NCBI RefSeq assembly: GCF_900105625.1
Contig: NZ_FNSD01000001.1
Span: forward strand, 2,976,001-3,040,000
Origin: Terriglobus roseus
GTDB taxonomy: Bacteria > Acidobacteriota > Terriglobia > Terriglobales > Acidobacteriaceae
Length of the DNA: 64,000 nt
Reading direction: 5' to 3'
Shown: positions 7,442 to 31,157 of the stretch, one piece after another
Layout of the letters: each line of letters opens with the position of its first letter
How positions within the stretch are numbered: position 1 is the first letter of the stretch
Notes under the pieces: model-generated
The model's database searches: none
Seen by the model: only the letters and a program-made list of their open reading frames with translations
Told to the model about the DNA's origin: nothing
Program-made: the position numbers and the translations under genes

Positions 7442-8824
7442 TTATGGCGTTGTGATGAGCGTCACCAGGTTGTACATGAAGGTCTGTCCTTCGTAGAAGG
7501 ACTTAATCGGCAGGCGTTCATCACGTCCGTGGAATCGGATGTCGTCGCGGTTGTAAAAGAAGCCCTGCACGCCGTAGGTGGGGACTCCGAAGGTACGCAG
7601 CATTCTGCCATCCGTTGCGCCCACGACCATGATCGGCACCACGGGGACTCGAGGAAAGACCTTCTCTGTCGCCTGCTTCACAGCCTTAAGGACATCCGGA
7701 CGCATGGGCGAAGGCACACCGCCGGCGGATTCCCGTTCCGAGAGAATGGAAACCTCTGGATCGTCGACCACCTTCTTGAGTGTCTCCAGAACATACTGTG
7801 GCGAGTCTTCCGGCAGAACGCGGCAATTCACCGTGGCTTCTGCCAGTTGTGGCAAAGCATTTGCGGCGTGGCCACCGTTCAACATCGTAGCGACACAGGT
7901 CGTCCGCAAGGTAGAGTTCCAGTTCGGATTCGCTGCGGCAGCCTTCTGCATCGCCGCCTGATCGCCCGAGGGAATCTTCGCAAGTTCAGCGGCCATCGGC
8001 CCTTTTTCAATCTTCGCCATCTGTGTGAAATAAGCAGCCGTGACCTCATTGGTCTTCAAGGGAAAGCCGAACTTGGATAGCTTCTGCAGCGCGTCTGCCA
8101 AGCGATAGATAGCATTATCCGGTACCGGCATGGAGCTGTGGCCACCCTTGTTCGTCACCTTGAAGGTGTAGGTGATCACATACTTTTCGCTAACCTGCAG
8201 GTCGTTCGAGGCCTTGATTTTGTTACCCATCTCGCCCCACCCGCCTTCATTCAGCGCGAAGTCCGCTTTTAGCAGATCTGGATGTTGCTTCAGAAGCCAG
8301 TCGACTCCGTTGTACTTTCCACCTTCTTCATCTGCGGTGAGCGCTACGATGATGTCGCGGTTTCCCTTATAGCCCTCACGCTTCAAGCGAATGATGGTCT
8401 CAAGCCAGATGGCTGCCTGAGACTTGTCATCGCCCACACCGCGGCCATAAAAGTACCCATCCTTCTCGTTCAAGACAAATGGATCCATGTTCCAGTCTTC
8501 GCGCTTGGCTTCCACGACGTCGGTATGCGCGAGCAATAGCAGCGGCTTCATCGAGCCGCTGCCATGCAGTCGTACAACCAGGTTGTGCTTGTTGGGTACA
8601 GGCCCGCCAACGAAGATGTCGCCTTCAGGAAAACCTGCTTCCTTCAACCGGCGAAGAGCGATGTCCGTGACCAGCGTGGTTGATCCAGTCTGCGTTGCTG
8701 ACTTCGCCTCAACAAACTCTTTGAAAATGTCGTGCGCCATCCGCCTGTCTGCGTCGGGTGTGGCCTGTGCGTGGACCGGAGAAAGAGTGCTGAGAAGGAG
8801 CAGGCCTGAGAGAGCAAGTTTCAT
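7442..8824 (-). CDS. Exported M20-family metallopeptidase
   Basis: Zinc-dependent exopeptidase or amidohydrolase, 460 residues. A signal peptide (MKLALSGLLLLSTLSPVHAQ) fixes the start at 8824; the frame runs upstream but without signal character. Metal-binding landmarks are LLLAHTDVV, the GRGVGDDK segment with its bridging aspartate, and TADEEGG with the catalytic glutamates. The dimerisation-domain motif GGHSSMPV is present and a late metal site lies in the FHGRDE region. It is convergent with the FG-GAP gene and opens the peptide-processing island. Substrate is unknown; family members remove C-terminal residues or split dipeptides. Confidence 0.88.
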   Translation of the reverse strand: MKLALSGLLLLSTLSPVHAQATPDADRRMAHDIFKEFVEAKSATQTGSTTLVTDIALRRLKEAGFPEGDIFVGGPVPNKHNLVVRLHGSGSMKPLLLLAHTDVVEAKREDWNMDPFVLNEKDGYFYGRGVGDDKSQAAIWLETIIRLKREGYKGNRDIIVALTADEEGGKYNGVDWLLKQHPDLLKADFALNEGGWGEMGNKIKASNDLQVSEKYVITYTFKVTNKGGHSSMPVPDNAIYRLADALQKLSKFGFPLKTNEVTAAYFTQMAKIEKGPMAAELAKIPSGDQAAMQKAAAANPNWNSTLRTTCVATMLNGGHAANALPQLAEATVNCRVLPEDSPQYVLETLKKVVDDPEVSILSERESAGGVPSPMRPDVLKAVKQATEKVFPRVPVVPIMVVGATDGRMLRTFGVPTYGVQGFFYNRDDIRFHGRDERLPIKSFYEGQTFMYNLVTLITTP

Positions 8825-9332
8825 ACGCGGTAATGGTCCTCGAACGAAGGGTGCAGAGCGCGGAGCGCTGGTTGAACGGCGCTGCTGGAATGGCAACAGA
8901 TGGAGGTGTGAGCATGACGCTAGCACAGGAGGTTCATCGCGAGTCCTCAGAAGTTTCTATCAGCACTCAAAAAAAACTAATTAGACACGCGACACCATTG
9001 TCCTTATGCTCAGGTCCATACCCGAACAATGTTTACCCGTTGAGCTTCGCAACCGAAGTCTCAACGACTCTTCTTTTCGCCGCCAAAGCTCCCTTGGAGG
9101 GAGCTTCTACCGCAGCGCGGATGTTTGTTCCGAAGTCCTTCTTTTGCCTGTTGAATTCGTAGCGTGTCTTCCGATGCGAGCGTCTTCGGACTGCCCTGTC
9201 TTCTGATCGCAGTTGTCGCGTAGCCATCACGCACTCTTTACGCTTCGAGCGCACTCTTGGCTCTATGTGTTCGCCGCTGCCGCGATTCAACATGCTGTCG
9301 CAACGCAAAATTCCAGTTGTTCCCGGAGGGAA
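8825..9332. other. Divergent intergenic region with tandem hairpins
   Basis: 508 bases between the M20 start and the TonB receptor start, without a supportable gene. It should hold both promoters. Two hairpins are visible. The first is GTTGAG-CTTCG (9039-9049) with CGAAG-T-CTCAAC (9054-9065) around CAAC. The second is AAGCTCCC (9086-9093) with GGGAGCTT (9099-9106) around TTGGA. They lie 230-290 bases ahead of the receptor start and could be part of a long leader or a small RNA. Confidence 0.4.
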
Positions 9333-12281
9333 ATGTTGAAGCGTTCCATTCTGAGCACGATTCTCGCTCTGCCACTCGCAGCCATCACACTTCACGCACA
9401 GCAATCGGCGATTCTCGGCAAAGTGGAAGATGCCAGCGGCGCTGCCGTTGTCGGTGCGCAGATCACCGCAACCACTGAAGGAGGTGCGACGTTTCACACG
9501 GTCTCCGACAGGACCGGCCTGTACCAGTTCCCGAGCCTCGCGGCCTCTAACTTCTCGGTGAAGACCGAAATGCCTGGATTCTCCACTGTCGTGGAAAAGG
9601 TGACGGTGCTTGTGGGGCAGTCGGTCACTGCGAACTTCACACTGAGCGCGGGTAATAGTACCCAGGTAGAAGTAACTGCGGACATTGCAACCATCGACAC
9701 CACGACGTCGCAGGTGTCCGGAAACATCGATCCGCAGACGATGGCGAAGATTCCGCTCAACGGTCGTAACTACATGGATCTGGCGACACTGATCCCGGGT
9801 ATCCGACGAAACGCGATCACCAACTACAGCCCACTCGGTTCACTGAACGGCGGGCGCCAGCAGTTCAACCTGGATGGACAGCAGGTAACGGCTAACGGGG
9901 CTGACTCGAGTTTCGGTCAGGCGCAATTCAGCCGCGACGCACTTGCGCAATTCCAGATCATCACCAATCAGTTCGATGCGACCCAGGGCCGCGCCTCGCA
10001 ATTGGTGATGAACATGCAAAGCAAGTCCGGCGGCAATAGTATTCACGGCACGCTCTTCGGCTACTTCCGTAATGACGTGTTTGACGCGAAGGACCCGATC
10101 ACGAAGACGGTTCTGCCGTTCTCCGATCAGCAGTATGGCGGCACGTTGGGAGCCCCCATCATCAAGGACAAGCTGTGGGTCTTTGGCTCTTACGAAGGTG
10201 AGCGAAGGCCCCAGCAGACGAACACAACCCTGATCGGCTTTACTGCGGGGCAGCTTAACTATTCGCTCAGCAACGCGTTCACTACTAATGAATATCTCTT
10301 TCGTGGTGACTACCAGCCGAGCAGCAAAGATCACATCTTCGTCCGCTACTTCAAGTACAGCCAGAAGCTGCCCGACCAGCTGCCGACCGGTAACTCTTCC
10401 ATCAGCCGCCAGTACTCAAGCACGTTGCAGGACTACGGTTACATCGGTTCGTGGACACGCAATATCTCATCAAATTTCGTGAATACGCTGTTTCATGGCT
10501 GGTACTACCAGGAGGGCGTGAACACGCCGCTGGTACCCAGTATGCAGATGACGTTCCCGACCCAGGTCATTGGTTCGGCGTATAACTATCCGTCATACCT
10601 CCCGGTGTCGAATTTTCAGTTTCGCGATGATGCTTTCTGGCTGAAGGGTAAGCATAGCTTCAAGTTTGGCGCGGAGTACCTGTTCGTTCGGAACGTGGGA
10701 TCCTTCCCGCAAAACGCTCGCGGAACGGTCACAATCAGCACCGATCCAACCAAGTTTGCAACGCCGCGTACCTGGGATTCGGTATTCCCGAACCAGTTGG
10801 ATCCAACCACTTGGGACTACGCGGCAATCAGCCCTTATGTGACCTCGTATACGCAGGCGTTTGGCAACTTTGATGTCAACATCAAGCGTAACCAGTTAGG
10901 TTTTTGGATTAACGACGACTGGAAGATCGCACCTCGTGCAACGCTGAACCTAGGCGTTCGCTACGACAACGATCTTGGTTTGATCACTGCGGGCAATAAC
11001 ACGGTCAATGGCATCGCTACTCCTAAGAACGGCAACAATTGGAACTTCGCGCCACGCCTTGGTTTCAACGCCGATATCTTCGGTACGGGCAAGACCGTGC
11101 TGCGTGGAGGAGCAGGCATCTACTTCGCCGAAATCAATGCGAATCAGTCTATCGATGCGCAGGTCTTCAATGGCGTAAATACGGTGCAGGCCGCCGCCAC
11201 CATCGGCCCTGGCTTTAGTCTCTTAAAGCCGTTCGGCGCCATCGATCCGAGCAGCTTCGTTTCGAATCCACAAAATGTCTATCAATCGATCCAGGTGAAT
11301 GATGCAAACATTCGCACACCATGGTCAGGACAAGCGACGATCGGTATTCAGCAGGAATTGCCGTTTAAGACGACTGTCTCACTGGATTACGTTCAGTTCC
11401 GTATGCACCACGAGTGGGGGCGGTTCGATGCCAACAGCGTCTACGATCCCAACACCGGCTGGAATCAGGCGAACTACACGGCAAGTTCGATCGTCCGCGT
11501 ACAGCCCAACACGCACTACTCAGTCATCCAGACTTTCAAAACGCCGGATTACATCGCAAACCAGCTCAAGCAATTGATGTTCAGTGCACGGAAACAGACC
11601 CAGTTCGGTCTAAGCGCAATGGTTTCGTATACGTATGGCTTGCAGAAGGACAATTCAGGCGGACCGTTCAGCTACGCCTCAAATCCCTACAACTACGCAA
11701 ACGAATGGGCGAATTCCGTAGATGACCAGCGTCACACACTGGCAATCACGACGGACTACCAATGGAAGTGGGGCATCCGTGGCGGCATCGTGTATCGTTA
11801 CGGTTCTGGTCTCGCCTATGCCACCAGTGTTTCGGCGACACCCCCAACCGGACTGGTGCAGAGTGCCAGCGCTAATCGCAGCTTCTGCGTTCGGGGCGTC
11901 GGAATAACGGGCGCATTGCCTGGTTCGGTCTGCTCGAAGCTCTCCGCGACGCAGACTTATAACCTTGCAACCGCGAGGCTCTATAACCCTGCAAGCCACA
12001 ATCATTACGACGCCGCAACCGGTCTAACAACAACGGATCGTAACGGCTTCCGTGCTTTGCCGATTGAACGAGTCGATGCGAACCTCGCAAAGATCTTCAC
12101 GATCAAGGACCGCTACAAGGTCACGACATCCGTGGAGGCCTTCAACCTGTTTAACCATTCCAACTATGGTTCTTACAACACGAATATCAGCCTCGCGAAC
12201 TACGGGACGCCGACCTCAACATCCGGCGTGCTTGCCTTCTATGCTCGGCAACTGCAGTTCTCGGCTCGTTTGGATTTCTAG
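9333..12281 (+). CDS. TonB-dependent receptor, Oar-like with carboxypeptidase-regulatory domain
   Basis: Outer-membrane receptor of 982 residues. It has a signal peptide, an N-terminal Cna_B-like domain (AILGKVEDASGAAVVGAQI), a plug region (PLNGRNYMDLATLIPGI), and a long barrel ending in aromatic phenylalanine (SARLDF), as needed for barrel insertion. The start at 9333 is chosen for CGGAGGG just upstream and for the signal peptide; the frame runs further up without either. It heads a plus-strand series with an amidohydrolase and two M20 enzymes, so it probably imports or binds their substrate. No TonB box was identified with confidence. Confidence 0.88.
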   Translation: MLKRSILSTILALPLAAITLHAQQSAILGKVEDASGAAVVGAQITATTEGGATFHTVSDRTGLYQFPSLAASNFSVKTEMPGFSTVVEKVTVLVGQSVTANFTLSAGNSTQVEVTADIATIDTTTSQVSGNIDPQTMAKIPLNGRNYMDLATLIPGIRRNAITNYSPLGSLNGGRQQFNLDGQQVTANGADSSFGQAQFSRDALAQFQIITNQFDATQGRASQLVMNMQSKSGGNSIHGTLFGYFRNDVFDAKDPITKTVLPFSDQQYGGTLGAPIIKDKLWVFGSYEGERRPQQTNTTLIGFTAGQLNYSLSNAFTTNEYLFRGDYQPSSKDHIFVRYFKYSQKLPDQLPTGNSSISRQYSSTLQDYGYIGSWTRNISSNFVNTLFHGWYYQEGVNTPLVPSMQMTFPTQVIGSAYNYPSYLPVSNFQFRDDAFWLKGKHSFKFGAEYLFVRNVGSFPQNARGTVTISTDPTKFATPRTWDSVFPNQLDPTTWDYAAISPYVTSYTQAFGNFDVNIKRNQLGFWINDDWKIAPRATLNLGVRYDNDLGLITAGNNTVNGIATPKNGNNWNFAPRLGFNADIFGTGKTVLRGGAGIYFAEINANQSIDAQVFNGVNTVQAAATIGPGFSLLKPFGAIDPSSFVSNPQNVYQSIQVNDANIRTPWSGQATIGIQQELPFKTTVSLDYVQFRMHHEWGRFDANSVYDPNTGWNQANYTASSIVRVQPNTHYSVIQTFKTPDYIANQLKQLMFSARKQTQFGLSAMVSYTYGLQKDNSGGPFSYASNPYNYANEWANSVDDQRHTLAITTDYQWKWGIRGGIVYRYGSGLAYATSVSATPPTGLVQSASANRSFCVRGVGITGALPGSVCSKLSATQTYNLATARLYNPASHNHYDAATGLTTTDRNGFRALPIERVDANLAKIFTIKDRYKVTTSVEAFNLFNHSNYGSYNTNISLANYGTPTSTSGVLAFYARQLQFSARLDF

Positions 12282-12365
12282 CTGAACGTAAAGCTGTCCT
12301 TTGCCGGGGTCGAACGTGCCCTGGCAAGGGACAATCGTTTTTCGCCGTTCGCTTCAGGAGATTGC

Positions 12366-15300
12366 ATGCTGTCGGTTCGTCTTGCCGGTTTCCATTCTGT
12401 GCTTCCTTTGTCTTTTGCCATTGCCGCCTGCACCATGCCGGTCGCTTCTGCGCAGTTTGAGAAAGCGCCCGGAAAGTCTGTGATCAAGTCCGTCGCTGTG
12501 ACGGAAGGGACCAACATGGCTGCAACGGTCTCACCGGACGGCAAGACCATCGTGTTTGATCTGCAGGAGACACTCTGGTCTCTGCCGATTGGTGGTGGTA
12601 CAGCAAAGCGCCTCACCGATCCGTTTCTTGAACCGGCGCGCCCAGACTGGTCACCAAAAGGTGATCTCATTGCCTTCCAGGGGTATAAGGGGGGGCAGTT
12701 TCATATCTGGGTTATGAAGCCTGATGGCACTGGCGTACGCCAGTTGACCAATGGTCACGGCGATGATCGCGAGCCTCGTGTGTCGCCGGACGGAACAAAG
12801 GTCGCCTTCGCCTCAGATCGAGCGATGAAGGGTAATTACGACATATGGGTTGTAGATATTGCAAGCGGCGCCTTGACGCAAAAGACATCCACAGAAAAGG
12901 AAGAATACGAACCGACCTGGGCACCGGACGGCCAGAGCATTGCCTTCGTAAGCGGCGTGGGAATTGCACGCGGTCATGGCGCCAGTGTCTCGGGTGTCGA
13001 CATCGAATCGGTGAACGCGTCGGGTGCGATCAAGCAAGTTTACAGCTTGCCCAAAGCAGATGGGGGCGCGGAAGCGGCGGCGCCGCACATCGAGTCTCCT
13101 TCGTTTTCTCCTGACGGAAAACTGGCATTCACCCTTGTTGGCGCGGGCAAGAGTGAACTGGTGGTGGACGGTAAAAAGGTCGGAGAAGCTGAGGATGTCT
13201 TTCCGTTCTATGTCTCGTGGCTTCCCGGTGGGAAGGCTCTCTACACCGGGGATGGCAAGATCCTGGTCACGGACCTAACTGCGGACAAGAGCACCAGTAT
13301 CCCTTTCTCCGCAAACTTCGACATCAACCGTCCGGGTTACCGTCATCGCATCTATGACTTTGATTCGACCGCCCCGAAACAAGTGAGGGGCATTCTGCAT
13401 CCACAGCTCTCGCCGGATGGCAAACAGGTGTTGTTCGAAGCGCTGAATCAGCTATGGCTTATGCCATTGGGCGGAAAACCCGAAGCGATCACCAGCGACA
13501 CCTACTATAAGCAGGACGCATCGTTTTCACCTGACGGAAAGAGCATCGTCTTCAGCACCGATGCGGATGGTTTCGAATCCTTACACATCATGGATCTGTC
13601 CACGAAGCGAGTGCGACGCGTCACCCACAGCACGGGTGACGCAGCGGAGGTTAGCGCAAAGTGGTCACCGGACGGCAAGTCCATCGCATTTCTTGATCAA
13701 GAGAGCGCGACCTTCGTTGCCGATGTTGCTACGGGTGATACGAAGGAAGTCCTCAAGGAGTTCTTCTATCCGTCGGAGCCGAGCTGGTCGCCTGACAGTA
13801 AGACCCTGACGATGGCGGTGTTGAAGCCTTTCAACATGCGTTTCCGGGAGGGCCTCAGCGAGATACTGACACTTGACCTTGCAACGGGAAAATACGTACT
13901 GACGCCCGCCGCTCCGGATAACACGATCTTGACGCGGGGTTTGAACGGCCCAACGTTCTCTCCGGATGGCAAGCAGATCGTCTTCGTGATGGATGATTTT
14001 TTGTGGACCATGCCGGTCGACGAGAAGGGCATACCCTCCGGCTCGGCTGTGCAATTGAATCATGAGAATTCTGACTCGCCGACTTGGAGCGGTGACTCGA
14101 AGACGATCCTCTATCTCTCCAATACAAAGCTGCACACGATCGCAGCGAGGCCGGGTGCGGTGCCCACGGCTGTGCCCGTGGACCTGACTTATCAACGCAA
14201 GTTGCCCACCAGCAAGGTCGTCATCTACGCCGGGACGTTCTGGAATGGCTTAGGTGCTGAGACCACGAAGGATGTCGACATCACCGTCGTAAAAAATCGC
14301 ATCGTCAGCATCAACCCACATAGCGCCAATGCGGCCAAGGTCGCGGGCATAGACAAGTACATCGACGCCCACGACAAGACCGTCATGCCTGGATTGTGGG
14401 AATCGCATAATCATATGTACGGAGCGATCCAGGAGGCAGGGGATGCAGGCGGCCGTCTCTGGCTTGCCTACGGTTTCACCACCCTCCAATCACAGGGCGA
14501 TGAGGGGTATCTGCAAGAAGAGATCAAAGAATCCTTCGCGGCAGATGCCCGTGTCGGGCCCCGCTATTTTGCTTCGGCCGAGATCTTCGATGGTGAGCGC
14601 ATCTTCTATCCCACTAACCGGGCAATCCATGGCGATGCTCAGATTCAGCGGGAGTTCGAACGGGCGCAGTCGCTCGAAGTCGATAACTACAAGACGTATG
14701 TGCGCTTACCCCACGAGCAGCAGGCGAAGTTCGTGGATTTGGCACACAACAAGGCGGGCGTTTGGATTGCTTCGCACTACGGTCTGCCCGGGCTGACGTA
14801 CGGAATGGATGCGATGAGTCATGTGTCGGCAACGTCTCGCTGGGGCTATGCGTATACGCGTTCGCTCAGCGGCGTGACCTACGGGGATGTGCGAACGCTC
14901 TTTCCTGCTGCGGACATGGCTATGATTTCTACAGCGTTCGCATCGACCTCACTGTACTCGCTAGACCCGACCATAGCCGACGATCCACGGCTGCAGGCGC
15001 TCGACCAGCCATGGGCCTTGAAGGCGCTGAAGACCACACGAGATCGAATGGTGAAGACGAGCCCCACTGTCAACTCAGAAGCATTGAAGCGTGAGGATGA
15101 GACGTTAATCGCTTTGATGAAGGCCGGTGGAAAGATCATGGCCGGCATCGACTCGTTTAGTCCGGGGTTGATGATCCCACTGGAGATGGGTATCCGCGCA
15201 GAAGCTGTCAACGGTATGAAGCCATGGCAGGCATTGCAAACGGCAACCATCATCCCTGCGCGCGCGTTCGGGTACGGCAAAGATCTCGGCTCGCTGGAAG

Positions 15301-15440
15301 TGGGGAAAATAGCGGATCTTGACATCGTTGACGGTAATCCGTTGGGGAACATTAACGATATGACCAAGATCGCAGGCGTCATGGTCAACGGTCGCTACTA
15401 TACCCAGGCCGAACTCCAGGCCCCGTTCAAAAAGAACTAA
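12366..15440 (+). CDS. Exported propeller-amidohydrolase (TolB/WD40-like repeats plus amidohydrolase)
   Basis: 1,024 residues with a signal peptide ending near ASAQF. Residues about 35-610 hold many PD-G-K/T propeller repeats of the tricorn/TolB type (SPDGTKVAFASDR, SPDGKSIVFSTD). Residues about 620-1020 form an amidohydrolase barrel. The first metal motif is GLWESHNHMYG (H-X-H), with later histidines in VWIASHYGLPG and an acidic site in AGIDSF. The start has CAGGAG upstream. It follows the TonB receptor by 84 bases. Family members cleave cyclic or linear amide bonds, and the propeller probably gates or binds the substrate. It is paralogous to the protein at 18638-21736. Confidence 0.88.
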   Translation: MLSVRLAGFHSVLPLSFAIAACTMPVASAQFEKAPGKSVIKSVAVTEGTNMAATVSPDGKTIVFDLQETLWSLPIGGGTAKRLTDPFLEPARPDWSPKGDLIAFQGYKGGQFHIWVMKPDGTGVRQLTNGHGDDREPRVSPDGTKVAFASDRAMKGNYDIWVVDIASGALTQKTSTEKEEYEPTWAPDGQSIAFVSGVGIARGHGASVSGVDIESVNASGAIKQVYSLPKADGGAEAAAPHIESPSFSPDGKLAFTLVGAGKSELVVDGKKVGEAEDVFPFYVSWLPGGKALYTGDGKILVTDLTADKSTSIPFSANFDINRPGYRHRIYDFDSTAPKQVRGILHPQLSPDGKQVLFEALNQLWLMPLGGKPEAITSDTYYKQDASFSPDGKSIVFSTDADGFESLHIMDLSTKRVRRVTHSTGDAAEVSAKWSPDGKSIAFLDQESATFVADVATGDTKEVLKEFFYPSEPSWSPDSKTLTMAVLKPFNMRFREGLSEILTLDLATGKYVLTPAAPDNTILTRGLNGPTFSPDGKQIVFVMDDFLWTMPVDEKGIPSGSAVQLNHENSDSPTWSGDSKTILYLSNTKLHTIAARPGAVPTAVPVDLTYQRKLPTSKVVIYAGTFWNGLGAETTKDVDITVVKNRIVSINPHSANAAKVAGIDKYIDAHDKTVMPGLWESHNHMYGAIQEAGDAGGRLWLAYGFTTLQSQGDEGYLQEEIKESFAADARVGPRYFASAEIFDGERIFYPTNRAIHGDAQIQREFERAQSLEVDNYKTYVRLPHEQQAKFVDLAHNKAGVWIASHYGLPGLTYGMDAMSHVSATSRWGYAYTRSLSGVTYGDVRTLFPAADMAMISTAFASTSLYSLDPTIADDPRLQALDQPWALKALKTTRDRMVKTSPTVNSEALKREDETLIALMKAGGKIMAGIDSFSPGLMIPLEMGIRAEAVNGMKPWQALQTATIIPARAFGYGKDLGSLEVGKIADLDIVDGNPLGNINDMTKIAGVMVNGRYYTQAELQAPFKKN

Positions 15441-15466
15441 AGGCATCTCGAAAGGAAATCGCTTCC

Positions 15467-16894: not shown

Positions 16895-16909
16895 GTAACT
16901 GGTTCAGCA

Positions 16910-16933
16910 AACGGCACCCTGCGGGGTGCCGTT
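16910..16933. terminator. Intercistronic hairpin
   Basis: AACGGCACCC (16910-16919), loop TGCG, GGGTGCCGTT (16924-16933), with 10-bp perfect arms. It lies between the M20 and M20D genes. Without a T-run on plus it may attenuate or stabilise the mRNA rather than end it. Confidence 0.5.
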
Positions 16934-21600: not shown

Positions 21601-21736
21601 CATTAGTGGCTTCGCTGATCGTGATGGTGCTTGCATCGGACTTGGCAGCGGGCTTCGTAGGTGCGGCATACAAACCGGAAGCGGAAACGGCAGCAAGTGC
21701 AAGACTGGCAAGGGCGCTGCTTAGATCGATCTTCAT
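18638..21736 (-). CDS. Exported propeller-amidohydrolase, paralogue of the 12366 gene
   Basis: 1,032 residues with a signal peptide (to about LYAAP). The architecture matches the protein at 12366-15440: propeller repeats, then an amidohydrolase barrel with GLWENHAHPDS as the H-X-H site and AGTDSP as the acidic site. The two share blocks such as GGTAKRLT and GHGDDREPR. It ends in NNVCSQ, with a terminal cysteine the other copy lacks. It follows a TonB receptor on the minus strand by 93 bases, mirroring the receptor-amidohydrolase pairing on the plus strand. Probably a related substrate with different specificity. Confidence 0.88.
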   Translation of the reverse strand: MKIDLSSALASLALAAVSASGLYAAPTKPAAKSDASTITISEATNAQVTVSPDGKTILADFQGLIYSLPMAGGTAKRLTQPFQEASHPDWSKVGDIVALQCYAGGTFHIWTMKPDGTGLKQVTFGHGDDREPRISPDGKTIVFTSDRAFKTGADGSSQGSYDIWTVPVAGGEPTQITKSDADEFGPSWSPDGKKIAFVSGVGLTATSVQAIDVANGKQVELLKVGGANRVEAPSWSPDAKHLAYIEFEASDPRAVNTGLMKIVGTDGKGSPTVAKSKDVFPFPAVWLSPTQLVYTGSGHIVKMDVSSGMESEISFTAAIPYQPHGFPHKVHNFDSTVAKQVKGIYAPALSPDGKSVAFVALNQLYVMPVGGTPKAITNDTFYKQGPAWSPDGTKLAYISDRDGIENIYLHSMSEATDAGDKRLAPQQTAQIMPAWSPDGKWMAFQDQTGATLLADVASGMVKPLAASTFFPGRASFSPNGKTVAIATIRPYTKRFREGTSAILTVDIATLKQHWYAAAPFESVTTRTEDGPTYTPDGKEMIFVLDDLLYAMPVDADGHPTGKAVKLNDETTDAPSVSADSKTILYLNNGKLKLLDRATSKVTPVAMPLTYTFAKPKQKLLIHAGKVWQGTGPGLLTDVDIVVTDNRITSVGPHKATPPAGITRTIEAPDSTVLPGLWENHAHPDSDNGIYYGARMGRLWLSYGVTTTRGIADNAYRSVEHNESYRSGAAVGPRTFSTGEAVDGERVYYPMMIATTSEEQLQREFLRLKALDFDMVKLYVRLPFAWAKKGIDFAHTQMGVDTASHYLLPAVALGEDGMSHLSATSRFGWAYSRSLSGHSYGDVQTLLAKSGMWTISTTFAQAQYAEDAGIVSDPRQAVAPPWEHGRVVTAFNTAKASDQKAAYVHLRDEESTVANDLHTGGIVLAGTDSPLDIPATSLHLNLRAQVKYGGMQPWEALTTATSMAARAYGYGKDLGTLEPGKLADLIIVGGDPLTAIDDVAKVQCVAVNGKLQSVDEVAAPFTKDVPKNNVCSQ

Positions 21737-21829: not shown

Positions 21830-24800
21830 CTAGAACGAGAAGCGGCCGATGAACTGCAGCGAACGTGCCTGGTATTCGAACGGCGCGCCGGACGATGCAG
21901 TTGCGGTGCCATAGGCAGTTGCGCCCGTGCCATTGGTGGCAGTTGTCGCAAAGTTACCAAAGTTGGAATGATTTGCCAGGTTGAAGGCTTCGATCGCAAC
22001 GATCGCGCGGTAACGCTCGTGTAGCTTAAAGCTCTCCTGCAGCCGCACGTCCACGCGCTGATACGGCGTGCCACGGAAGCCGTCACGCTGAATCACGTAA
22101 TAGCCGTATGCCGTATCGTTGTAGACCTTCGACAGCGGTGCGTAGATCTTGGTGCACGTGGTGGTTGGGCACGCACCGTTGAAGGTGGGCGCAACCGGCG
22201 TTACACCTGCGGCGAAGGTGCGTGTGCTGCCGACATAACCGTTCACCGAACCGCCAGACGATGTGGCAAATGCCAGACCCGATCCGAAGTGATAGAGGCT
22301 TGAGAGTGACAGGCCGTACTTCCACTGGTACTCGCCATTCACCGTCAATGTATGACGCTGATCGTCTGTGCCATTTGCCCATTCCTGTTGAAGACCCGGC
22401 TTAAAGGGCTTGTTCGGATATGAGAATGCTCCGTTTGTGGAGTTCTTCGTGCGACCCCACGTGTAGGCAAGTGCACCGGTGAAGCCGTGTGCTGCGGCAT
22501 GCTTGATGCCAACCTGCAACGCGTCCGCAATGACGCCCGCTCCCGGCATCGTGGCGAAGTTACGCACGGATCCGCCGAAGAGATTGTTGCAGACTGCCTT
22601 TGCTGCGGCTCCGTTTGGGTTCCCATTATTCGGTGCACCCGTGGCCAGATTTGCCACACTGTCGAGCGTGATGCCACCGTTGCCACAGACTCGGCTCCCG
22701 TACTGTGCCGCGGTAATTGCAGCGGTTGGATTCAGGTTCCGCTGGGCGTTCGCTGGATCCTGGAGCAGGTTACCGCTCAGTGCAACGAAGTCGTCGTACA
22801 CACGCATGTGAACGAAGTCAGCAGACATGGTCGTTTTATATCCAAGCTCCTGCTGTGCGCCAAGGGAAAGTTGCAGGGCATAGGGCGTCTTCGATCCACG
22901 CAGCACTGGCTGCGGCGAGCTTACATATCCTGCAGGGTTCGCTGCGGGATTCTGACCCGCAAACGGACTGGGCAAAGTAAGCGGTGTGGCCGTCGAACCG
23001 GAAACTGTCGCCTGCAGAGCTCTCGACGTGCTGCTGTAAAGCTGCTCGTCGATGATGGCGTTTGCCACCTGATCCGCAAAATACAAACCGCCGCCGCCGC
23101 GAATGGCTGTCTTGCCCCGGCCGCTCGGGTCATAGGAGAAGCCAAGGCGTGGCGCGAAGTTTGCGTTCGGATTGGAGTTGGGTGTCAACAGACCGGCAGT
23201 CGGCACGAATGACGTGTTGTACGCGCCAAGATCGTTGTCATAGCGAACGCCAAGGTTCAGTGTCAGGTTCGAGAGAATCTTCCAGTCGTCCTGTGCCCAG
23301 ACCCCGATGATGTTCCGCCCGATGCTGATGTCGTAACTGCCGAAGGCCTGTGTGAAGATTTCACCGCCGCCGCAGTACGAATTAATGGCCGAATAGTTCC
23401 AGGTGGCTGGATCCAGCGTGCCATTGGGGAAAAACGAGTTGTACAAGGTCTTCAACTGTGCCGAGGTATAGCTGCTGTACGCGGCTGCCGCCGTGCAAGT
23501 GGTCAGCCCGCCGCGAAGGTACTGCGGGAAGGTGCCCCCATGCAGTGTATGAAGATACTCGCCGCCAAGCTTGAAGCTGTGCTTGCCCTTCACCCAGAAC
23601 AGGTCGTCGCGATACTGCTGCGTATATTGGCTGAAAACTTCGGGCTGGTTGTAAGGCTCGCCCACGGTCGCCAGTGGTAGCGTCAGCACGATGGACTTAT
23701 TGTCATAAAACGGCAGGATCTGAAACTGGAAGTAGTGGAAGCCCGTGTGAACGTCATTCACCATGTGATCGTTCACGTTATGATTCCAGTCGAAGACATA
23801 GCCCGACGAAGATACGGTCTGGCTGTAGGACTGGCTGGGGTCACTCCCCCCGACGAAGCTATTGTTTGAGTTGAAGGCATCACCGCGAAGGAAGAAGTGA
23901 TTGCGGTCGCTGCGCTGGTAGTCTACGCGGCCCAGATACTCATTGTTCTTGAGAATGCTGGGGTGCGTGAAGACGCTGCCCACACCGCTGGTGACAAAAG
24001 GACTGATCGAGGTTGTGTTCGGCTGATGTTCTCCTTCGTAGGATCCGAAGAACCACATCTTGTCCCGTTTGATCTTGCCACCGAGTGTGCCGCCATACTG
24101 CTGATCGGCGAAATCCGGGACGACATTCGCAACCGTCGCACCAAGCACATTCTTGTTGTATTTCAGGATCGGATCGGCCTGGTTGAAATAAGAGTTGCGG
24201 AAGTAACCGAAGGCGCCACCGTGGAGGGCGTTGGTTCCCGTCTTGCTTTGAAGATTGACGTAGATGCCGGCGGAGCGGCCGCTGGTTGCGTCGAAGCGAT
24301 CGGTGATGATCTGAAATTGCGAGATGGCATCCTGCGAAACCTTAGGCTGGCCAAAGCTTGATCCCACCGAATCCTGCGAGTACTGCAGGCCGTCGAGCGT
24401 GATCTGGAACTTTCCCGTCTCCGCGTCGCCTGCATTGGTCGACTGGCCAGAGGCTGCGGGTGTGTTGCCGAAGGAGTTTGCCTTGATACCGGGAATCAGC
24501 GCGGACAACTGCACGTAGTTGCGGCCGTTCACCGGGATGTCCTGTACCTCCTGCGGAGTCACATTGCCCGCGACTGCTGAGGAGGTGGTATCGATCGCAA
24601 CCTCGCTTGCCTGTACTTCCACCACGGTGTTCGAGGTGGCCGCCGACAGGGTGATATCCACCGTTGCAAGCTGACCAACCAGCAACAGGATCTTCTGCTC
24701 CACCGTGCCGAAACTTGGGGCGGAGACTGTGATGAGGTAGTCGCCTGCTGTGAGGGACGGCAGAAGCCATGTGCCCTGGCCACTGGACTTCGCATGGAAC

Positions 24801-24952
24801 TCGGCAGCACCAACCTGCTTCACGTTGATCGTGGCGCCAGAAACCACGGCACCACTGGCGTCGACCACTTTACCCGTCAGGCCGGTCTGTTGCGCCACTG
24901 CGGATGCTGCGGAGAGGAAAACAATCGGTGCAACGCGGCGGAGCATCTTCAT
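21830..24952 (-). CDS. TonB-dependent receptor, Oar-like with carboxypeptidase-regulatory domain
   Basis: 1,040 residues with a signal peptide ending near AVAQQ. The N-terminal Cna_B-like domain reads TGLTGKVVDASGAVVSGATI. The plug contains PVNGRNYVQLSALIPGI. The barrel ends QFIGRFSF with the terminal phenylalanine typical of outer-membrane barrels. It lies upstream of the second propeller-amidohydrolase on the same strand and downstream of the lyase-like gene, so the three may be used together. The 333-base gap ahead suggests its own promoter. Confidence 0.88.
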   Translation of the reverse strand: MKMLRRVAPIVFLSAASAVAQQTGLTGKVVDASGAVVSGATINVKQVGAAEFHAKSSGQGTWLLPSLTAGDYLITVSAPSFGTVEQKILLLVGQLATVDITLSAATSNTVVEVQASEVAIDTTSSAVAGNVTPQEVQDIPVNGRNYVQLSALIPGIKANSFGNTPAASGQSTNAGDAETGKFQITLDGLQYSQDSVGSSFGQPKVSQDAISQFQIITDRFDATSGRSAGIYVNLQSKTGTNALHGGAFGYFRNSYFNQADPILKYNKNVLGATVANVVPDFADQQYGGTLGGKIKRDKMWFFGSYEGEHQPNTTSISPFVTSGVGSVFTHPSILKNNEYLGRVDYQRSDRNHFFLRGDAFNSNNSFVGGSDPSQSYSQTVSSSGYVFDWNHNVNDHMVNDVHTGFHYFQFQILPFYDNKSIVLTLPLATVGEPYNQPEVFSQYTQQYRDDLFWVKGKHSFKLGGEYLHTLHGGTFPQYLRGGLTTCTAAAAYSSYTSAQLKTLYNSFFPNGTLDPATWNYSAINSYCGGGEIFTQAFGSYDISIGRNIIGVWAQDDWKILSNLTLNLGVRYDNDLGAYNTSFVPTAGLLTPNSNPNANFAPRLGFSYDPSGRGKTAIRGGGGLYFADQVANAIIDEQLYSSTSRALQATVSGSTATPLTLPSPFAGQNPAANPAGYVSSPQPVLRGSKTPYALQLSLGAQQELGYKTTMSADFVHMRVYDDFVALSGNLLQDPANAQRNLNPTAAITAAQYGSRVCGNGGITLDSVANLATGAPNNGNPNGAAAKAVCNNLFGGSVRNFATMPGAGVIADALQVGIKHAAAHGFTGALAYTWGRTKNSTNGAFSYPNKPFKPGLQQEWANGTDDQRHTLTVNGEYQWKYGLSLSSLYHFGSGLAFATSSGGSVNGYVGSTRTFAAGVTPVAPTFNGACPTTTCTKIYAPLSKVYNDTAYGYYVIQRDGFRGTPYQRVDVRLQESFKLHERYRAIVAIEAFNLANHSNFGNFATTATNGTGATAYGTATASSGAPFEYQARSLQFIGRFSF

Positions 24953-25285: not shown

Positions 25286-26788
25286 CTACAACAGTTGCGC
25301 CTGTGCGGCCTTCATCAGATTGGACTGTTTCGCTGAGAGGTACTCGCGTTCCGCGTTGAGCCAGTTGGCATCTCTCTCCAATTGTGATGCCGCTCGTTGC
25401 AACTCGGGCTCTAGTGCAGACTTTGCAGGACCACCCTCAATACCTCGAACCGCGATAAAGTTTTCTGGATCCAGAGCGAGTTGAACCGTGGCGTAGGGCA
25501 CGTCGAAGCCTGCGGCAATTACGTCGCGATGAACGTCCAGCGCAAGCGCATCGTTATCGTCGGAAGTTGCATGACGCACGGAACGGGAGACGATGCCGTG
25601 TGCCTGATGGAAGGACATGCCAGTCGATCGAACGAGCGTATCCGCAAGCTCCGTTACGGTCAGGAAGCTGGTGCCCGCGCGGGTTCGCATCCGCTCGACG
25701 CTGAACGTCGCTTCGGACAGCGCACCAGCCAGCAACGTTGTTGACCGCTCCGCATCCGCGAAGGCGAGCGCGACCAGTGGCTGCAGCGAATCTTCGCCGT
25801 CATTCATATCCGTGAAGGGGGTGTTATGCAATGAGCCGAGGACCGACTGCGACTCCGTCAATGCACGTGATGCAAGGATGCGCGTGTGTTCCAGCGGAAC
25901 TGGATTACGCTTTTGCGGCATGATACTGCTGATTTGGACATAGCCTTCAGAGAGGCGTAGATAGCCAAACTCCGCAGTGGACCACAACAACATCTCCTGC
26001 GTAAATCGGCCCAGTGAGAGCATCGCCGTAGCCAGGACGCTGCATGCCTCCGCGACGTAATCCACTGATGCGATCGCACCGTAAGAGTTCGTGACAAGCC
26101 CGCGGAATCCCAGCGCCTCCTCGGTCATATGGCGATCGATGGAAAACCCTGTAGTTGAAATGGCGCAGGCGCCCAGAGGAGAGCGATTCACCCGCGCATA
26201 ACAACTGATGACACGTTCCGCATCGCGCTCCATCACCTCGATGTAAGCCATCAGAAAGTGTCCCAGCGTCGTTGGCTGCGCGGGCTGGTTATGTGTGTAG
26301 GCCGGCATGATGGCGTCGCGGTACTTCTGAGCGAAACCAAGAAGGGTTTGACGCAGCGCAAGCGCACTACCGAGTAAGTCCAGCAGGCGTTGCCGGAGCG
26401 TCATGCGGTACATCGTCAGATCGAGATCGTTGCGGGAACGCGCGGTGTGTATGCGCCCGGCATTGTCCGCTCCAGCGGCTTTCGCGAGTTCGGTCTCCAC
26501 ATAAAAGAAGAGATCCTCGACCGAGCCGTCATAGCGAACGGCGCTGATCGCTGCAAGATCGAGGGAGAGAATTGCGCGCAGGCACGCGGCCGCCTGTTCC
26601 TGCGACAGAATGCCCTGCTTCGTCAGCATCAGGACATGAGCCAGGTCGCACTCAATGAGCGATGGAAGAAAGAGTCGCTGCGCATCCGCGAAGACGTGCG
26701 CGAGAACCGTATCGCGGTAGACGTCTGCCGGAAACTTCGAGGTGCTTTCAGCGTTTCCGCCGTTGCCGGTTGTGTCGTTCGATCGCAA
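25286..26788 (-). CDS. Argininosuccinate lyase-family C-N lyase, divergent
   Basis: 500 residues of the fumarase/aspartase/ASL superfamily. The ASL-type motif ARSRNDLD and the catalytic serine loop SSIMPQKRNPVPLEH are clear, so an elimination that releases fumarate from an N-substituted aspartate is likely. Other ASL blocks differ: SPLGACAISTTGF replaces the usual GALAG segment and NTPFTDMNDGED the usual YNKDMQEDKE-like segment. A TTG start at 26788 is preferred because GGGAGAG lies five bases upstream; the frame can run to 26887, overlapping the receptor stop. Set among receptors and hydrolases rather than arginine genes, it is probably catabolic, comparable to EDDS lyase; this is inference. 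Confidence 0.75.
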   Translation of the reverse strand: MRSNDTTGNGGNAESTSKFPADVYRDTVLAHVFADAQRLFLPSLIECDLAHVLMLTKQGILSQEQAAACLRAILSLDLAAISAVRYDGSVEDLFFYVETELAKAAGADNAGRIHTARSRNDLDLTMYRMTLRQRLLDLLGSALALRQTLLGFAQKYRDAIMPAYTHNQPAQPTTLGHFLMAYIEVMERDAERVISCYARVNRSPLGACAISTTGFSIDRHMTEEALGFRGLVTNSYGAIASVDYVAEACSVLATAMLSLGRFTQEMLLWSTAEFGYLRLSEGYVQISSIMPQKRNPVPLEHTRILASRALTESQSVLGSLHNTPFTDMNDGEDSLQPLVALAFADAERSTTLLAGALSEATFSVERMRTRAGTSFLTVTELADTLVRSTGMSFHQAHGIVSRSVRHATSDDNDALALDVHRDVIAAGFDVPYATVQLALDPENFIAVRGIEGGPAKSALEPELQRAASQLERDANWLNAEREYLSAKQSNLMKAAQAQLL

Positions 26789-26870
26789 CGTTTCTCTCCC
26801 AGAGTGATGGTTCAAAGAAAGAACGACCGGGACGCTGCAAAGATCTGCCGCCTCCCGGTCGCAACATCCG

Positions 26871-29756
26871 TTAAAAGCGAACTGCAAAACCCCACTGAAC
26901 GATGCGAGCTTCCAAGACCGTGCTGCGAACGGTGTTGATAGCTCCCGTTCCGACTCCGGCGTTACCGTTGGCCGCCTGCGATAGCGCGAAGTTGTACGGT
27001 GTGGTTGCCTGCGTCACGGTCAGGCCGGTGATGTTCTGGTGGTTGAAGACATTATTGGCTTCAAGTAGGAACGACGGCTCCAAACGATCCCAGTACTTTC
27101 CGAAGGTGCGGGTATACCGTGCGTCGAATTGGTAGATGTTGGGTGACCGGAATGTGTTGCGACCGACGAAGGCAGGGCGCTGTACGGTGCCGGCAGACGA
27201 ATCGCCGTTCAGCGTTCCAGTCGACGTCGTCAAGTTCGCCTGGTCGCCCGAAGACAGGTTGGCCAGGATTGCGAAGCGATTACCATTCGCAATGGTGTTC
27301 AGGAAACCGCTGCCATAGTGGAAAGTAGGTTCCAGCACAGCCGTCATGTTGAAGGCGCTAGGACGATTAACCAGTGAGTTGCCGCGGTCGCGCTTGTAGT
27401 TGGTAGTGTCCATCACGGTAGTGCTCTGCTCGAAGGTGTTGACCTCTGGAGCATCCGTAATCGTGTGCGACCAGGTGTAGTTCGCGTTGAACTGCAGACC
27501 GTGGATTGGGGACATCGTGTAGTTGAGCACCAGCGCGTTGAAGCTGCTGTTAGCGCCGGACTGCACACGATTGATTTGATTGAAGCGCGGGTCAGGTTTT
27601 GTCGTTGCCAGGTTCGTATTAAATACCGGCCGTCCGTCCGCCAGCGTACCCACCGGGTTCTGCAGGTTGATATTGCGCAGATACATCAGATTGCGGCCGT
27701 TGGAGAGGATGTAGCCGACAGTCAATGAGCTACGCGACCCAAGCTGCTGCGTCAGTTGTGTGTTGAAGTTCCACGTGTACTCGTTCTTGATGTTCGGCGA
27801 AACGGTCAGAACGTTCTGCAGAGCCACGGCGCCGGTTGCGCTGGGGATGTTCGGGTACGCGGGGGCGCCCGTCTGCGTGGGCTGGAACGTGTAGCTGTTG
27901 ATACGGTTCGAGCCATCCGAGTTCAGGGCATTGAACCAGAGATTAGTCGGCGTCTGCTGATAGAAAATACCGGCCGATGCCTTAAAGACAGTTTTCTCTG
28001 TCGCTCGGAACGAGAAGCCTAGGCGCGGAGCAAAATTACCGCCGGGTACATTGAACGACCAAGAGTCGGCGACCGGTGCATTCGGATTCGCACTGGGTGC
28101 CTGGAAGCGATCGTAACGTAGACCACCCACTACAACTAGTCGCGGCGCAACTTGCCAGGTGTCTTGCGCGTAACCGCCGTAGAAGAGTGATGCGTAGCCA
28201 ATACCCGTTGTGTCTGTCTGCGAGGTGAACGAATTGTAGGACCGTGGATTTACACCGCTCACCGCCTGCTGATAGGCGGCGATCGAGCCAAAGGTGTAAA
28301 CGTTGGAGCTGGCCACACGCTGCCGCTGTTGAAGGGCCGCAAGCGTGAAGCCTGCCTTGATGGCATGCGATCCACGGACGTAGGAGATATTCTCCGATCC
28401 GTTAGGCGAGTGTTCGTAGTAAGTGGTGCCGCCGGAGGATGACGCGCCCATGGTGACTAGGTTGGTGATTGTGACCGTGGGAGCGGTGCTTGGTGTCGCG
28501 GCGGAAGTAACACTGGAGCGCAACGGCAGTGAGATGCGGAACTCATTCAGTAAGTGATCGCTTACGGTGGTGATGAGCTGACCGCCGAAGACGTGCGCGC
28601 GATCTTTGAAATTCGCGCCCGTCGAACGCAGGTTGATGCCGCCGACCTGCGTGTTGTACGGGAAGTCGTTGACGAAGTAGTTGTAGCGAATCATCGCCTG
28701 ATTCTTTTTGTTGATGGTCCAGTCAAGACGACCGAGAGCGAATTTGCCGCTGAGGAGACCGGGCGCCGCTTGCAGCTGGTCTGCGGGGATGCCGAGCGCG
28801 TTGATGGTCGCTTGTGTGACGGTGACCGGCGATGGGCTGCCGCGCTTTACCTGCTCATACGAACCGAAGAAGAACAGCTTGTCCTTGATGATGCGTCCGC
28901 CCAGGTTTCCGGAATAGTCACGCAGTTCAAGGTTTGGCTTCGCAGACCCGGTGGTGCTTAGCAAGGGATACGCCGTTGCATCTACCCAACGCTGCACGAA
29001 CTGGAACATGCCGTGATATTGGTTGGTGCCGTTGTTCGAGATGACGTTGTAAACATTGCCCGTCGTCCATCCATACTCGGGCGCGAAGGAGTTCGCGACT
29101 TCTTGTACTTCCTTCACGAAAATGGTTCCCACCGGGAAGAAGCGCAGGCCGATGCGGTCGCTCTCGGTATTGAGCATGCCGTCCATCTGGTAGTTAATAC
29201 GGTCCAGCAGACCATTCGTGTTGATGGTGCGGGGAATGCCCAGTTCTGCGTTTGGGTGCCCGGACACGCCTGGCTGAAAGATGATGAAGTTGTAGGGATT
29301 GCGCGAGGTCAAGGGGAGATTCTCCACTTCACGCGAATCCAGTGTGCGCTGGATGTTCAGATTTGTGGGATCGATGCTGACGTTATCCGCGACTACGCTT
29401 ACGGAAGATCCAACTTCTCCGACTACCATCTCGCCATCAATTGCGGATTCCGAACCGGCGTTCAACACAACATCTTTCACTGTTAGAGAAGAGAATCCAG
29501 GTGCCGAGAACAGAACGGTATATTCGCCGAGTGGCAAATTGATGAGTGTGTAGAGTCCGTTGCTGCCCGTCGTCGCTGTCTTCGTGAAGCCGATTGCGGA
29601 ATTTGTGACGGTAACGGTTGCATTGGCAATCGCGGCGCCACTTGGATCCAATGCGCGGCCGCGTATGGTTCCATTAACAGACTGTTGAGCCAAAGCCGCA
29701 GGAACAGCCGACAGCATCAACGCGGAAGTAATGACCGTGCGGGAAAATCTCGACAT
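26871..29756 (-). CDS. TonB-dependent receptor, Oar-like with carboxypeptidase-regulatory domain
   Basis: 961 residues with a signal peptide ending near ALAQQ. The N-terminal Cna_B-like domain is GTIRGRALDPSGAAIANATV. The plug shows LTSRNPYNFIIFQPGV. The barrel ends in WGFAVRF. The start has CGGAGGCAG upstream. It lies 126 bases after the ROK regulator and 82 bases before the lyase-like gene, all on minus, which suggests regulated co-expression. It is distinct from the other two receptors in plug and barrel sequence. Confidence 0.88.
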   Translation of the reverse strand: MSRFSRTVITSALMLSAVPAALAQQSVNGTIRGRALDPSGAAIANATVTVTNSAIGFTKTATTGSNGLYTLINLPLGEYTVLFSAPGFSSLTVKDVVLNAGSESAIDGEMVVGEVGSSVSVVADNVSIDPTNLNIQRTLDSREVENLPLTSRNPYNFIIFQPGVSGHPNAELGIPRTINTNGLLDRINYQMDGMLNTESDRIGLRFFPVGTIFVKEVQEVANSFAPEYGWTTGNVYNVISNNGTNQYHGMFQFVQRWVDATAYPLLSTTGSAKPNLELRDYSGNLGGRIIKDKLFFFGSYEQVKRGSPSPVTVTQATINALGIPADQLQAAPGLLSGKFALGRLDWTINKKNQAMIRYNYFVNDFPYNTQVGGINLRSTGANFKDRAHVFGGQLITTVSDHLLNEFRISLPLRSSVTSAATPSTAPTVTITNLVTMGASSSGGTTYYEHSPNGSENISYVRGSHAIKAGFTLAALQQRQRVASSNVYTFGSIAAYQQAVSGVNPRSYNSFTSQTDTTGIGYASLFYGGYAQDTWQVAPRLVVVGGLRYDRFQAPSANPNAPVADSWSFNVPGGNFAPRLGFSFRATEKTVFKASAGIFYQQTPTNLWFNALNSDGSNRINSYTFQPTQTGAPAYPNIPSATGAVALQNVLTVSPNIKNEYTWNFNTQLTQQLGSRSSLTVGYILSNGRNLMYLRNINLQNPVGTLADGRPVFNTNLATTKPDPRFNQINRVQSGANSSFNALVLNYTMSPIHGLQFNANYTWSHTITDAPEVNTFEQSTTVMDTTNYKRDRGNSLVNRPSAFNMTAVLEPTFHYGSGFLNTIANGNRFAILANLSSGDQANLTTSTGTLNGDSSAGTVQRPAFVGRNTFRSPNIYQFDARYTRTFGKYWDRLEPSFLLEANNVFNHQNITGLTVTQATTPYNFALSQAANGNAGVGTGAINTVRSTVLEARIVQWGFAVRF

Positions 29757-29797: not shown

Positions 29798-29882
29798 GTG
29801 CGGCCACGGTTCGTTGTTTTGGTAGGTTCGTGTCGCCACTAGGTCGATCTTGTCGTCGTCTGCCGTTTCTCGGCTCGTGTCG

Positions 29883-31157
29883 TCAACAGAAAAGGCCGGC
29901 CTCGATGGCCGCAAGTGACAAGGAAATCGCGCCGAACAGCTGTGCCTGCTTGCCCAGGCTGGATATCCGCAACACTGTTTGCGCAAGCTCGTTTTTGCGC
30001 AGGAAGTTTTCGGTGGATGTGCGCAGAATCTCGTGCGACCCCACACCACCGCCCAGTACGACCAACTTAGGGTCATACAGTAACCCCAGGATGCTGATCG
30101 CGTCCGCGAGAATCCGGGCTGTAGAGTTGACGATTTCAAGGGCCAGTGCGTGACCATCGCGTGTGGAGTCACCCGCCAGGTCGAAGATCTGCGACGCGCG
30201 CAGCCTCTGCAGGGAACCCTCATGCAGGCCTTCACGTAGCAACGCTGCTTTCCAGGTATCTTCGATACCTGCTCCACCGATAATCCGCTCCAACTGACCG
30301 GTCTCGTTCAGGCGCATGGTTTCGCGAGGCATACCCGCGACTGGCAGATACCCAATTTCGCCCGCGGACCATGTTGCCCCGTGGTGCAGTGAACCTTCTA
30401 CATAAATGCCCGCGCCGACTCCGGTGCCCATGGCAATAAAGACAAAGTCGCGTGCATCGTGCGCGATGCCGCGGGATCGTTCTCCCACTGCCGCCAGGTT
30501 CACATCGTTTTCTACAGCCGCCTGGACGCCCAGGTCTTTCTCCAGCAAAAATTGCAGGGGCACATCGTTCCAATCCTGCAGGTTCGGAGCGGCCTTCACC
30601 ACGCCATTGCGAACATCCGTAATTCCCGGGGCACCAACGGTAATGTGTCGAACGCGACCAACGGCATTCGCGCTCTCTGCCATGGTCGTCAGGCCCTCGC
30701 GCATCTGGGAGACGACGGCTCCGGGGGTCTTACGGCCTGCCTTCAGACGCGCTTCCCAGGTAGCAACAGTCGTGCCATGCAGATCTGCAAGCATCATGCG
30801 CAGATAGGTGCCACCGATGTCCGCACCCGCAACGTAGGCGTGCGATGCGTTGAACTGCAACAGATCCGGTGGGCGTCCGCCCGATGATTTTCCTTCACCG
30901 ATCGGTTCGACCAGACCGTATTCAGCAAGTTGCGCAACGGCTGCTGCGACCGTAGGAGCCGAGAGTCCGGAACTGCGTACCAGGTCTGCCTTGGAGCAAG
31001 GGCTGCTCTTCCGCAGCAACCGCAAAAGCGCACGGCAGTTCGCCTCACGCAGGTGCGGTGGCCGCGCCGCTTCTACGGCATGGGGCTCGCCGGGTGCGGA
31101 AGGACTCAGGGGCAGCAGGGTAGGAGGCATCGTGTGAACCGAGTTTATAAGGAACAT
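29883..31157 (-). CDS. ROK-family transcriptional regulator (NagC/XylR type)
   Basis: 424 residues. An N-terminal winged helix (LVRSSGLSAPTVAAAVAQLA) with a typical GGRPP wing is followed by a sugar-kinase-fold ROK domain with GADIGGTYLRMM and GTGVGAGI. The CXCGXXGCXE zinc motif that most ROK proteins carry is missing; the region after EIGYLPVAG has no cysteine cluster. Starts at 31157 and 31130 are both possible and neither has a strong ribosome site. It heads the minus-strand island and is the likely regulator of the downstream receptor and lyase. Most ROK regulators sense sugars or amino sugars. Confidence 0.85.
   Translation of the reverse strand: MFLINSVHTMPPTLLPLSPSAPGEPHAVEAARPPHLREANCRALLRLLRKSSPCSKADLVRSSGLSAPTVAAAVAQLAEYGLVEPIGEGKSSGGRPPDLLQFNASHAYVAGADIGGTYLRMMLADLHGTTVATWEARLKAGRKTPGAVVSQMREGLTTMAESANAVGRVRHITVGAPGITDVRNGVVKAAPNLQDWNDVPLQFLLEKDLGVQAAVENDVNLAAVGERSRGIAHDARDFVFIAMGTGVGAGIYVEGSLHHGATWSAGEIGYLPVAGMPRETMRLNETGQLERIIGGAGIEDTWKAALLREGLHEGSLQRLRASQIFDLAGDSTRDGHALALEIVNSTARILADAISILGLLYDPKLVVLGGGVGSHEILRTSTENFLRKNELAQTVLRISSLGKQAQLFGAISLSLAAIEAGLFC

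Follow-up and report, generated by a model that had tools for sequence, protein, structure and literature searches.

The window analysed here is a stretch of 64,000 nucleotides from the 4.8-Mb genome of Terriglobus roseus (G000:C1:2976001-3040000), and the features discussed lie at 7442-31157 of it. The interesting part is a core of three genes encoding a ROK-family regulator, an Oar-like receptor and a lyase of the ASL/fumarase superfamily. This ROK-receptor-lyase group appears to be a piece of a widespread, seemingly undescribed bacterial route for N-acylated sugar conjugates. On balance, the core is probably part of a salvage pathway for amino-sugar conjugates, which would comprise uptake, de-N-acylation and fumarate elimination. 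In titles and abstracts, with subscription journals little covered, no account of the lyase/PIG-L/ROK gene set was recognised. The 24-kb stretch consists of three neighbouring modules (A, B and C, the core being module C), not of one pathway. The core genes are:

25286-26887, minus strand: ASL/fumarase-superfamily lyase, module C (PF00206 1e-44, ASL_C2)
26871-29756, minus strand: OAR3, Oar-like TonB-type outer-membrane receptor, module C (PF25183, PF13620)
29883-31157, minus strand: ROK-family regulator, N-terminal winged helix-turn-helix plus ROK domain, module C (PF00480 8e-42, HTH_24)

A first-pass annotation of the window had assigned the lyase to a fumarate-releasing superfamily, and the Lyase_1 (PF00206) and ASL_C2 matches confirmed this. 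SSIMPQKRNP was found in 100 of 100 family sequences, and the SRN and TH motifs were conserved. S151-R152-N153, T198-H199, S320-S321, K326 and N328 (numbering of the open reading frame, ORF), which we take to be the fumarate-side residues shared with ArgH, were all kept. The active site of ASL-superfamily enzymes is shared between subunits. Positions that presumably face the leaving group were changed: HH of ArgH became FF, and L-P-L-x-Y-x-x-D-x-Q became T-P-F-x-D-x-x-D-x-E (94-100% of the 100 sequences). In a tree of 120 sequences, 20 of 20 ArgH proteins formed one clade with a support of 1.0, and the lyase was outside it. The cut-off of NF005218 (PRK06705), 883 bits, was reached neither by the window lyase (342 bits) nor by three relatives (321-455 bits). 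The conserved part started near residue 49 of the ORF, and the true start is probably some 45 codons inside it. The lyase and OAR3 ORFs overlap by 17 nt.

The window genome (G000) was compared with 100 related genomes (101 in total), among which the genus has 19 members. Counting the window genome, 22 of the 101 genomes had the lyase at E ≤ 2e-108 (next best matches 4e-63), and so did 17 of the 19 genus members. An uncultured Terriglobus sp. (CALMOM010000054.1) had a 67% identical lyase. We inspected 22 lyase loci of relatives, two of them from G070 and three on contigs of ≤9.3 kb. ROK and OAR3 homologues stood beside the lyase in 15 of these loci, and module C is an old core. A large PIG-L (LmbE-type) protein was encoded within 10 kb of the lyase in 18; of the four loci without it, those of G004 and G009 were on contigs shorter than 9 kb. 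An APC permease homologue lay within 10 kb in 13. ArgH loci served as controls, and none of 20 contained a PIG-L or ROK match; these controls, 18-20 kb long, came only from acidobacterial relatives, whereas the cross-phylum lyase loci described below were multi-phylum and of variable length. At the genome level, all 22 lyase-bearing genomes encoded PIG-L (21 at 1e-120, and G096 by its HPDDE motif).

Across phyla, at least 592 lyase relatives were confirmed, and the best 80 named loci were used for all counts over 80. They came from acidobacteria, bacilli, rhizobia and other alphaproteobacteria, Woeseiaceae, Chloroflexi and others. Because the ORF caller took antisense ORFs over some lyases (cluster c7), gene presence in the 80 loci was recounted by tblastn with chosen thresholds of 60-150 bits. 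Antisense ORFs were likewise called over the lyase in G039 and one G070 locus. PIG-L was present in 39 of the 80 loci, 38 with HPDDE; the L117 match was a 130-amino-acid fragment. The other counts were 34 for ROK, 37 for an SBP1 sugar-type binding protein, 40 for MalF, 17 for PfkB, 12 for BadF and 10 for a Fe-type binding protein, a few PfkB and BadF counts resting on 60-70-bit matches. The families were assigned from single representatives. The one BadF representative scanned matched NagK best among NCBIfam models, under its cut-off. Recurring layouts were PIG-L/ROK/SBP1/MalF/MalG/lyase/ATPase/PfkB, ROK/SBP/ATPase/permease/PIG-L/lyase/BadF, and SSS/PIG-L/lyase. The large PIG-L proteins in lyase loci were mostly ~780-980 amino acids long. 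Six representatives scored over the PF02585 cut-off, the HPDD motif was in 38 of the 39 tblastn-positive loci, and the two representatives scanned against NCBIfam had no match at 1e-10. The best solved matches of the bacillal binding protein were a pyridoxal-phosphate binder and 4r72, presumably the hexose-phosphate binder AfuA; these matches suit an anionic ligand. The first-pass annotation had proposed peptides or N-succinyl/N-acyl amino acids as the substrate. The frequent companions of the lyase, namely PIG-L, a permease or ABC importer, ROK and sugar kinases, argue for an amino-sugar conjugate instead.

Signal-like segments ahead of the PIG-L domain were scored with a simple hydropathy measure, whose threshold (1.6) was set after viewing the results. 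Such a stretch was present in all 7 SBP_Fe loci, all 4 SSS loci and all 3 other TonB/APC loci, and in only 1 of 22 SBP1 (sugar ABC) loci; the two remaining loci were split 1:1. Judged by these segments, whether PIG-L is secreted or stays in the cytosol seems to depend on the kind of transporter. Deacylation seems to precede import with some transporters and to follow it with others. That PIG-L location tracks the transporter fits an enzyme acting on the conjugate before the lyase does.

We infer a substrate class, an order of steps, roles for the permease and kinases, and a ROK ligand as follows. The TonB receptor would carry the conjugate into the periplasm, the exported large PIG-L would strip its N-acyl group, and the APC permease would import the free amine. 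The cytosolic ASL-type lyase would take a proton from the dicarboxylate half, expel the amino-sugar half and release fumarate. The freed sugar would then be phosphorylated, and the ROK protein would sense the sugar.

Most characterised LmbE-like enzymes de-N-acetylate substrates containing N-acetylglucosamine (GlcNAc) (PMC4101496). The window genome also holds a sister set without lyase, at 4028-16022 of L083 (G000:C1:571000-590999): a LacI-like regulator (assigned by eye), PfkB, OAR, PIG-L, APC permease, PfkB and GH4. In it, kinases and a GH4 glycosidase accompany PIG-L and the permease in place of the lyase, and similar sets were found in G002, G051 and G052. By analogy with the LmbE-like precedent and this sister set, the likeliest substrate class would be an amino sugar joined to a malate- or aspartate-like group.

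A more specific candidate is doubtful. The lyase would be a malyl-glycoside lyase converting glucosamine-malate (GlcN-malate, the bacillithiol core) to fumarate and glucosamine in a fumarase-like reaction, and the large PIG-L would be a bacillithiol amidase or GlcNAc-malate deacetylase. To our knowledge, GlcN-malate is the single natural member of this substrate class. The intact His199 would suit a leaving group needing protonation, such as a sugar oxygen, which is suggestive only. Against this candidate, the lyase (22 of 101 genomes) and BshC (98 of 101) do not share a distribution; a role of the lyase in bacillithiol synthesis is ruled out by the same counts. No thiol-linked gene was recognised among the recurrent lyase neighbours, where no search by name was made. 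Nine loci (L105, L110, L115, L130, L135, L138, L141, L147 and L161) that have an Amidohydro_2 enzyme but no large PIG-L also count against GlcN-malate.

These nine loci, which perhaps reflect a variant substrate or an alternative deacylase, weigh against the salvage pathway in general as well, as do the following observations. Of the 57 named loci with 6 kb of sequence ahead of the lyase and 3 kb behind it, 25 lacked PIG-L (26 without the L117 fragment). Many of the best 80 loci are from related rhizobia or paenibacilli and thus non-independent. The lyase passed the cut-off of TIGR00838, the ArgH equivalog (331.1 vs 279.5 bits). PIG-L was also found in 30 of the 79 genomes without lyase (1e-120), with or without the permease, indicating that it also serves other uses. 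Divergent PIG-L/permease pairs lay away from any lyase at G018:C2:91696-96070, in a genome that has no lyase, and at G010:C1:8543-13144; the pair in G010 is adjacent but on another contig than the lyase. The window genome holds the full set, but scattered. Its PIG-L orthologue is at about G000:C1:3304911-3307976 (two parts of one open frame, which match the G003 protein at 62% and 60% identity) and its APC permease orthologue at G000:C1:3269622-3271001 (73% identical). The two are 34 kb apart and ~0.3 Mb from the core. The nearest relative, G011, disperses PIG-L and permease from the core in the same way.

Nor was an operator common to the core and PIG-L/permease found. A CTTTGTAAAG dyad, a possible ROK operator, was present upstream of ROK in 8 of the 15 relative loci with ROK (G002, G005, G006, G008, G012, G015, G017 and G051). 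No CTTTNNAAAG match was found upstream of ROK in the other 7 relative loci or in the window. In the window genome, two CTTTNNAAAG matches occurred in 520 bases around the PIG-L start, whereas the stretches ahead of OAR3, ROK and the permease had none. When 198,864 positions of the genome were scored with a weight matrix, none of these sites ranked on top.

Another reading of the lyase is possible, though rather unlikely: it may, like EDDS lyase and ArgH, break a C-N bond, its substrate then being an aspartate-type conjugate with an N-(1,2-dicarboxyethyl) group. Such a conjugate could be an amino-sugar or Amadori-type aspartate or a chelator resembling ethylenediaminedisuccinate (EDDS) or aspergillomarasmine. 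Enzymes of the ASL branch usually cleave C-N bonds. The closest solved relatives agree with this reading, EDDS lyase (6g3d, 6rx8) being best with E 5e-66 and the bacterial ArgH 2e9f following with 9e-65. However, EDDS lyase has Gln (6g3d/6rx8) at the position of His199, which is His in 100 of 100 family sequences, and a chelator alone would leave PIG-L, ROK and the sugar kinases unexplained.

The proposed salvage pathway concerns module C only. Module A is OAR1-PAH1-M20b-M20D, module B is OAR2-PAH2, and module C is ROK-OAR3-lyase. ORF and domain scans recovered all ten genes at 7442-31157 with the families listed by the first-pass annotation (M20, Oar-like, propeller-amidohydrolase, M20D, ASL-type lyase and ROK). 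Besides the core, the features are:

7442-8926, minus strand: M20a, exported M20 hydrolase (NF006596, 618 bits, cut-off 349)
9213-12281, plus strand: OAR1, Oar-like receptor, module A (PF25183; ORF start uncertain)
12366-15440, plus strand: PAH1, exported propeller-amidohydrolase, module A (PD40, Amidohydro_1)
15467-16894, plus strand: M20b, exported M20 hydrolase, module A (PF01546)
16967-18421, plus strand: M20D, exported amidohydrolase, module A (TIGR01891, 264 bits, cut-off 154)
18581-18630, no strand: terminator-like hairpin between converging arms (inverted repeat)
18638-21736, minus strand: PAH2, exported TolB-like propeller plus amidohydrolase, module B (PD40, Amidohydro_1)
21830-24952, minus strand: OAR2, Oar-like receptor, module B (PF25183)

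Domain matches and signal-like N-termini supported the receptors and exported amide hydrolases; the N-terminal stretches were judged by eye in M20a (from an internal Met), M20b, M20D, PAH1 and PAH2. PAH1 and PAH2 are paralogues as claimed, with 48% identity over residues 16-1023. M20a is divergent from OAR1, and its tie to module A is presumed from position only. A large FG-GAP/Ig-like protein at 4398-7289 adjoins the hydrolase/receptor stretch. Of the terminator reported near 18.6 kb, the inverted repeat was seen at 18581-18630 (23 nt, 78% complementary, with a T-rich run after the second arm), but a consensus terminator scan called none, this hairpin included. The minus-strand genes do not form a single evident operon, because a gap of 333 bp separates the lyase from OAR2 and G011 has an opposite-strand ORF of 302 amino acids in that gap.

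It is very unlikely that all these genes form one periplasmic pathway for peptides or N-succinyl/N-acyl amino acids with the lyase as the last step, which was how the first-pass annotation had read the stretch as a two-armed island. The genes are physical neighbours in the window, the receptor-propeller sets of modules A and B are paralogous, and module B adjoins module C in G011 too. However, the modules occur independently in relatives, an outcome that had been named beforehand as one that would overturn the single island. As best BLAST matches, PAH1, M20b and M20D were found in none of the 22 relative lyase loci, and OAR2-PAH2 was near the lyase only in G011. PAH2 homologues were found in G002, G007, G008, G011, G015, G017 and G051. 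In G002, G007 and G008, the OAR2 and PAH2 homologues adjoin each other, distant from the lyase. In G015, G017 and G051, the PAH2 homologue is away from the lyase, and an adjacent OAR2 homologue was not recognised. In the cross-phylum loci, PIG-L, ROK and sugar-type transporters stay with the lyase, and none of the 45 largest neighbour clusters shown contained the window M20 and PAH proteins, which had been added as references. Modules A and B are separate sets of a receptor and exported amidases, probably for peptides. The case shows that genes lying side by side in one genome may suggest a pathway that falls apart when relatives are compared.

Module A was absent at the matching place in G011, where a different receptor sits between tRNA-Val and PAH2, and it had no close counterpart in the genus. 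Matches of PAH1 outside its own genome at E ≤ 1e-200 were 45-48% identical and closer to PAH2 where compared. At E ≤ 1e-100, none of the 18 other genus members matched M20b. For M20D, 7 of the 101 genomes gave matches at E ≤ 1e-80, one of them being its own genome; within the genus, the matches were only in G008 and G017 (38-39% identical). The GC content of module A genes was 0.546-0.575, and that of most surroundings ~0.59-0.61. It was also low in OAR3 (0.562), OAR2 (0.578) and the lyase (0.582). Because OAR3 of the old core is equally low, the low GC content is no proof that module A was acquired. Module A adjoins tRNA-Val (window 3705-18600). The final 14-24 bases of tRNA-Val had only one exact occurrence in the window, and with this end unrepeated, site-specific integration was not demonstrated.

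That the lyase is another argininosuccinate lyase, serving to make or salvage arginine, is the least probable reading despite the TIGR00838 score, and it was rejected on the tree, the changed residues and the gene context: a separate ArgH-type homologue (G000:C1:4647858, 31% identical) falls in the ArgH clade with a support of 1.0, and the identified neighbours of the lyase are sugar-type, arginine genes not having been sought by name.

If the salvage pathway is true, ArgH-scoring proteins of rhizobia, bacilli, acidobacteria and marine proteobacteria would be re-assigned to one common pathway for sugar conjugates. Among low-molecular-weight thiols, bacillithiol and its derivatives are termed the most broadly distributed (PMC6282198). 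A bacillithiol-type substrate would reveal how these thiols re-enter carbon and sulfur cycling. The GlcN-malate route, if true, would be a scavenging of the most widespread bacterial thiol class in soil and sea, non-producers included.

Among known systems, the bacillithiol pathway (BshB/Bca, GlcN-malate) would supply a natural amino-sugar malate conjugate, and 3 of the 80 loci (L106, L109 and L161) have a small PIG-L homologue close to the lyase. The small PIG-L is under the BshB2 cut-off (L109: best match BshB2, 123 vs 195), and a lyase-based breakdown route was not found in titles and abstracts. In L106 and L109 (Paenibacillus), a creatininase-family gene is also by the lyase. ROK/NagC/Mlc-type amino-sugar regulons likewise have ROK beside a receptor or ABC transporter and sugar kinases; the lyase set differs in including an ASL-type lyase and a large PIG-L, NagA and NagB not having been sought by name. 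EDDS lyase is the best solved sequence relative of the lyase and differs at His199. The lyase shares with ArgH its superfamily, the SRN, TH and SS-x-MPQK-x-NP motifs and a score over the family cut-off, and differs in its separate clade, its changed residues and its context of PIG-L, ROK and sugar-type transport. The partner enzyme resembles the LmbE-like/PIG-L deacetylases (PIG-L, MshB, BshB and TkDAC) in PF02585 and HPDDE, and differs in being large and often having a signal-like segment.

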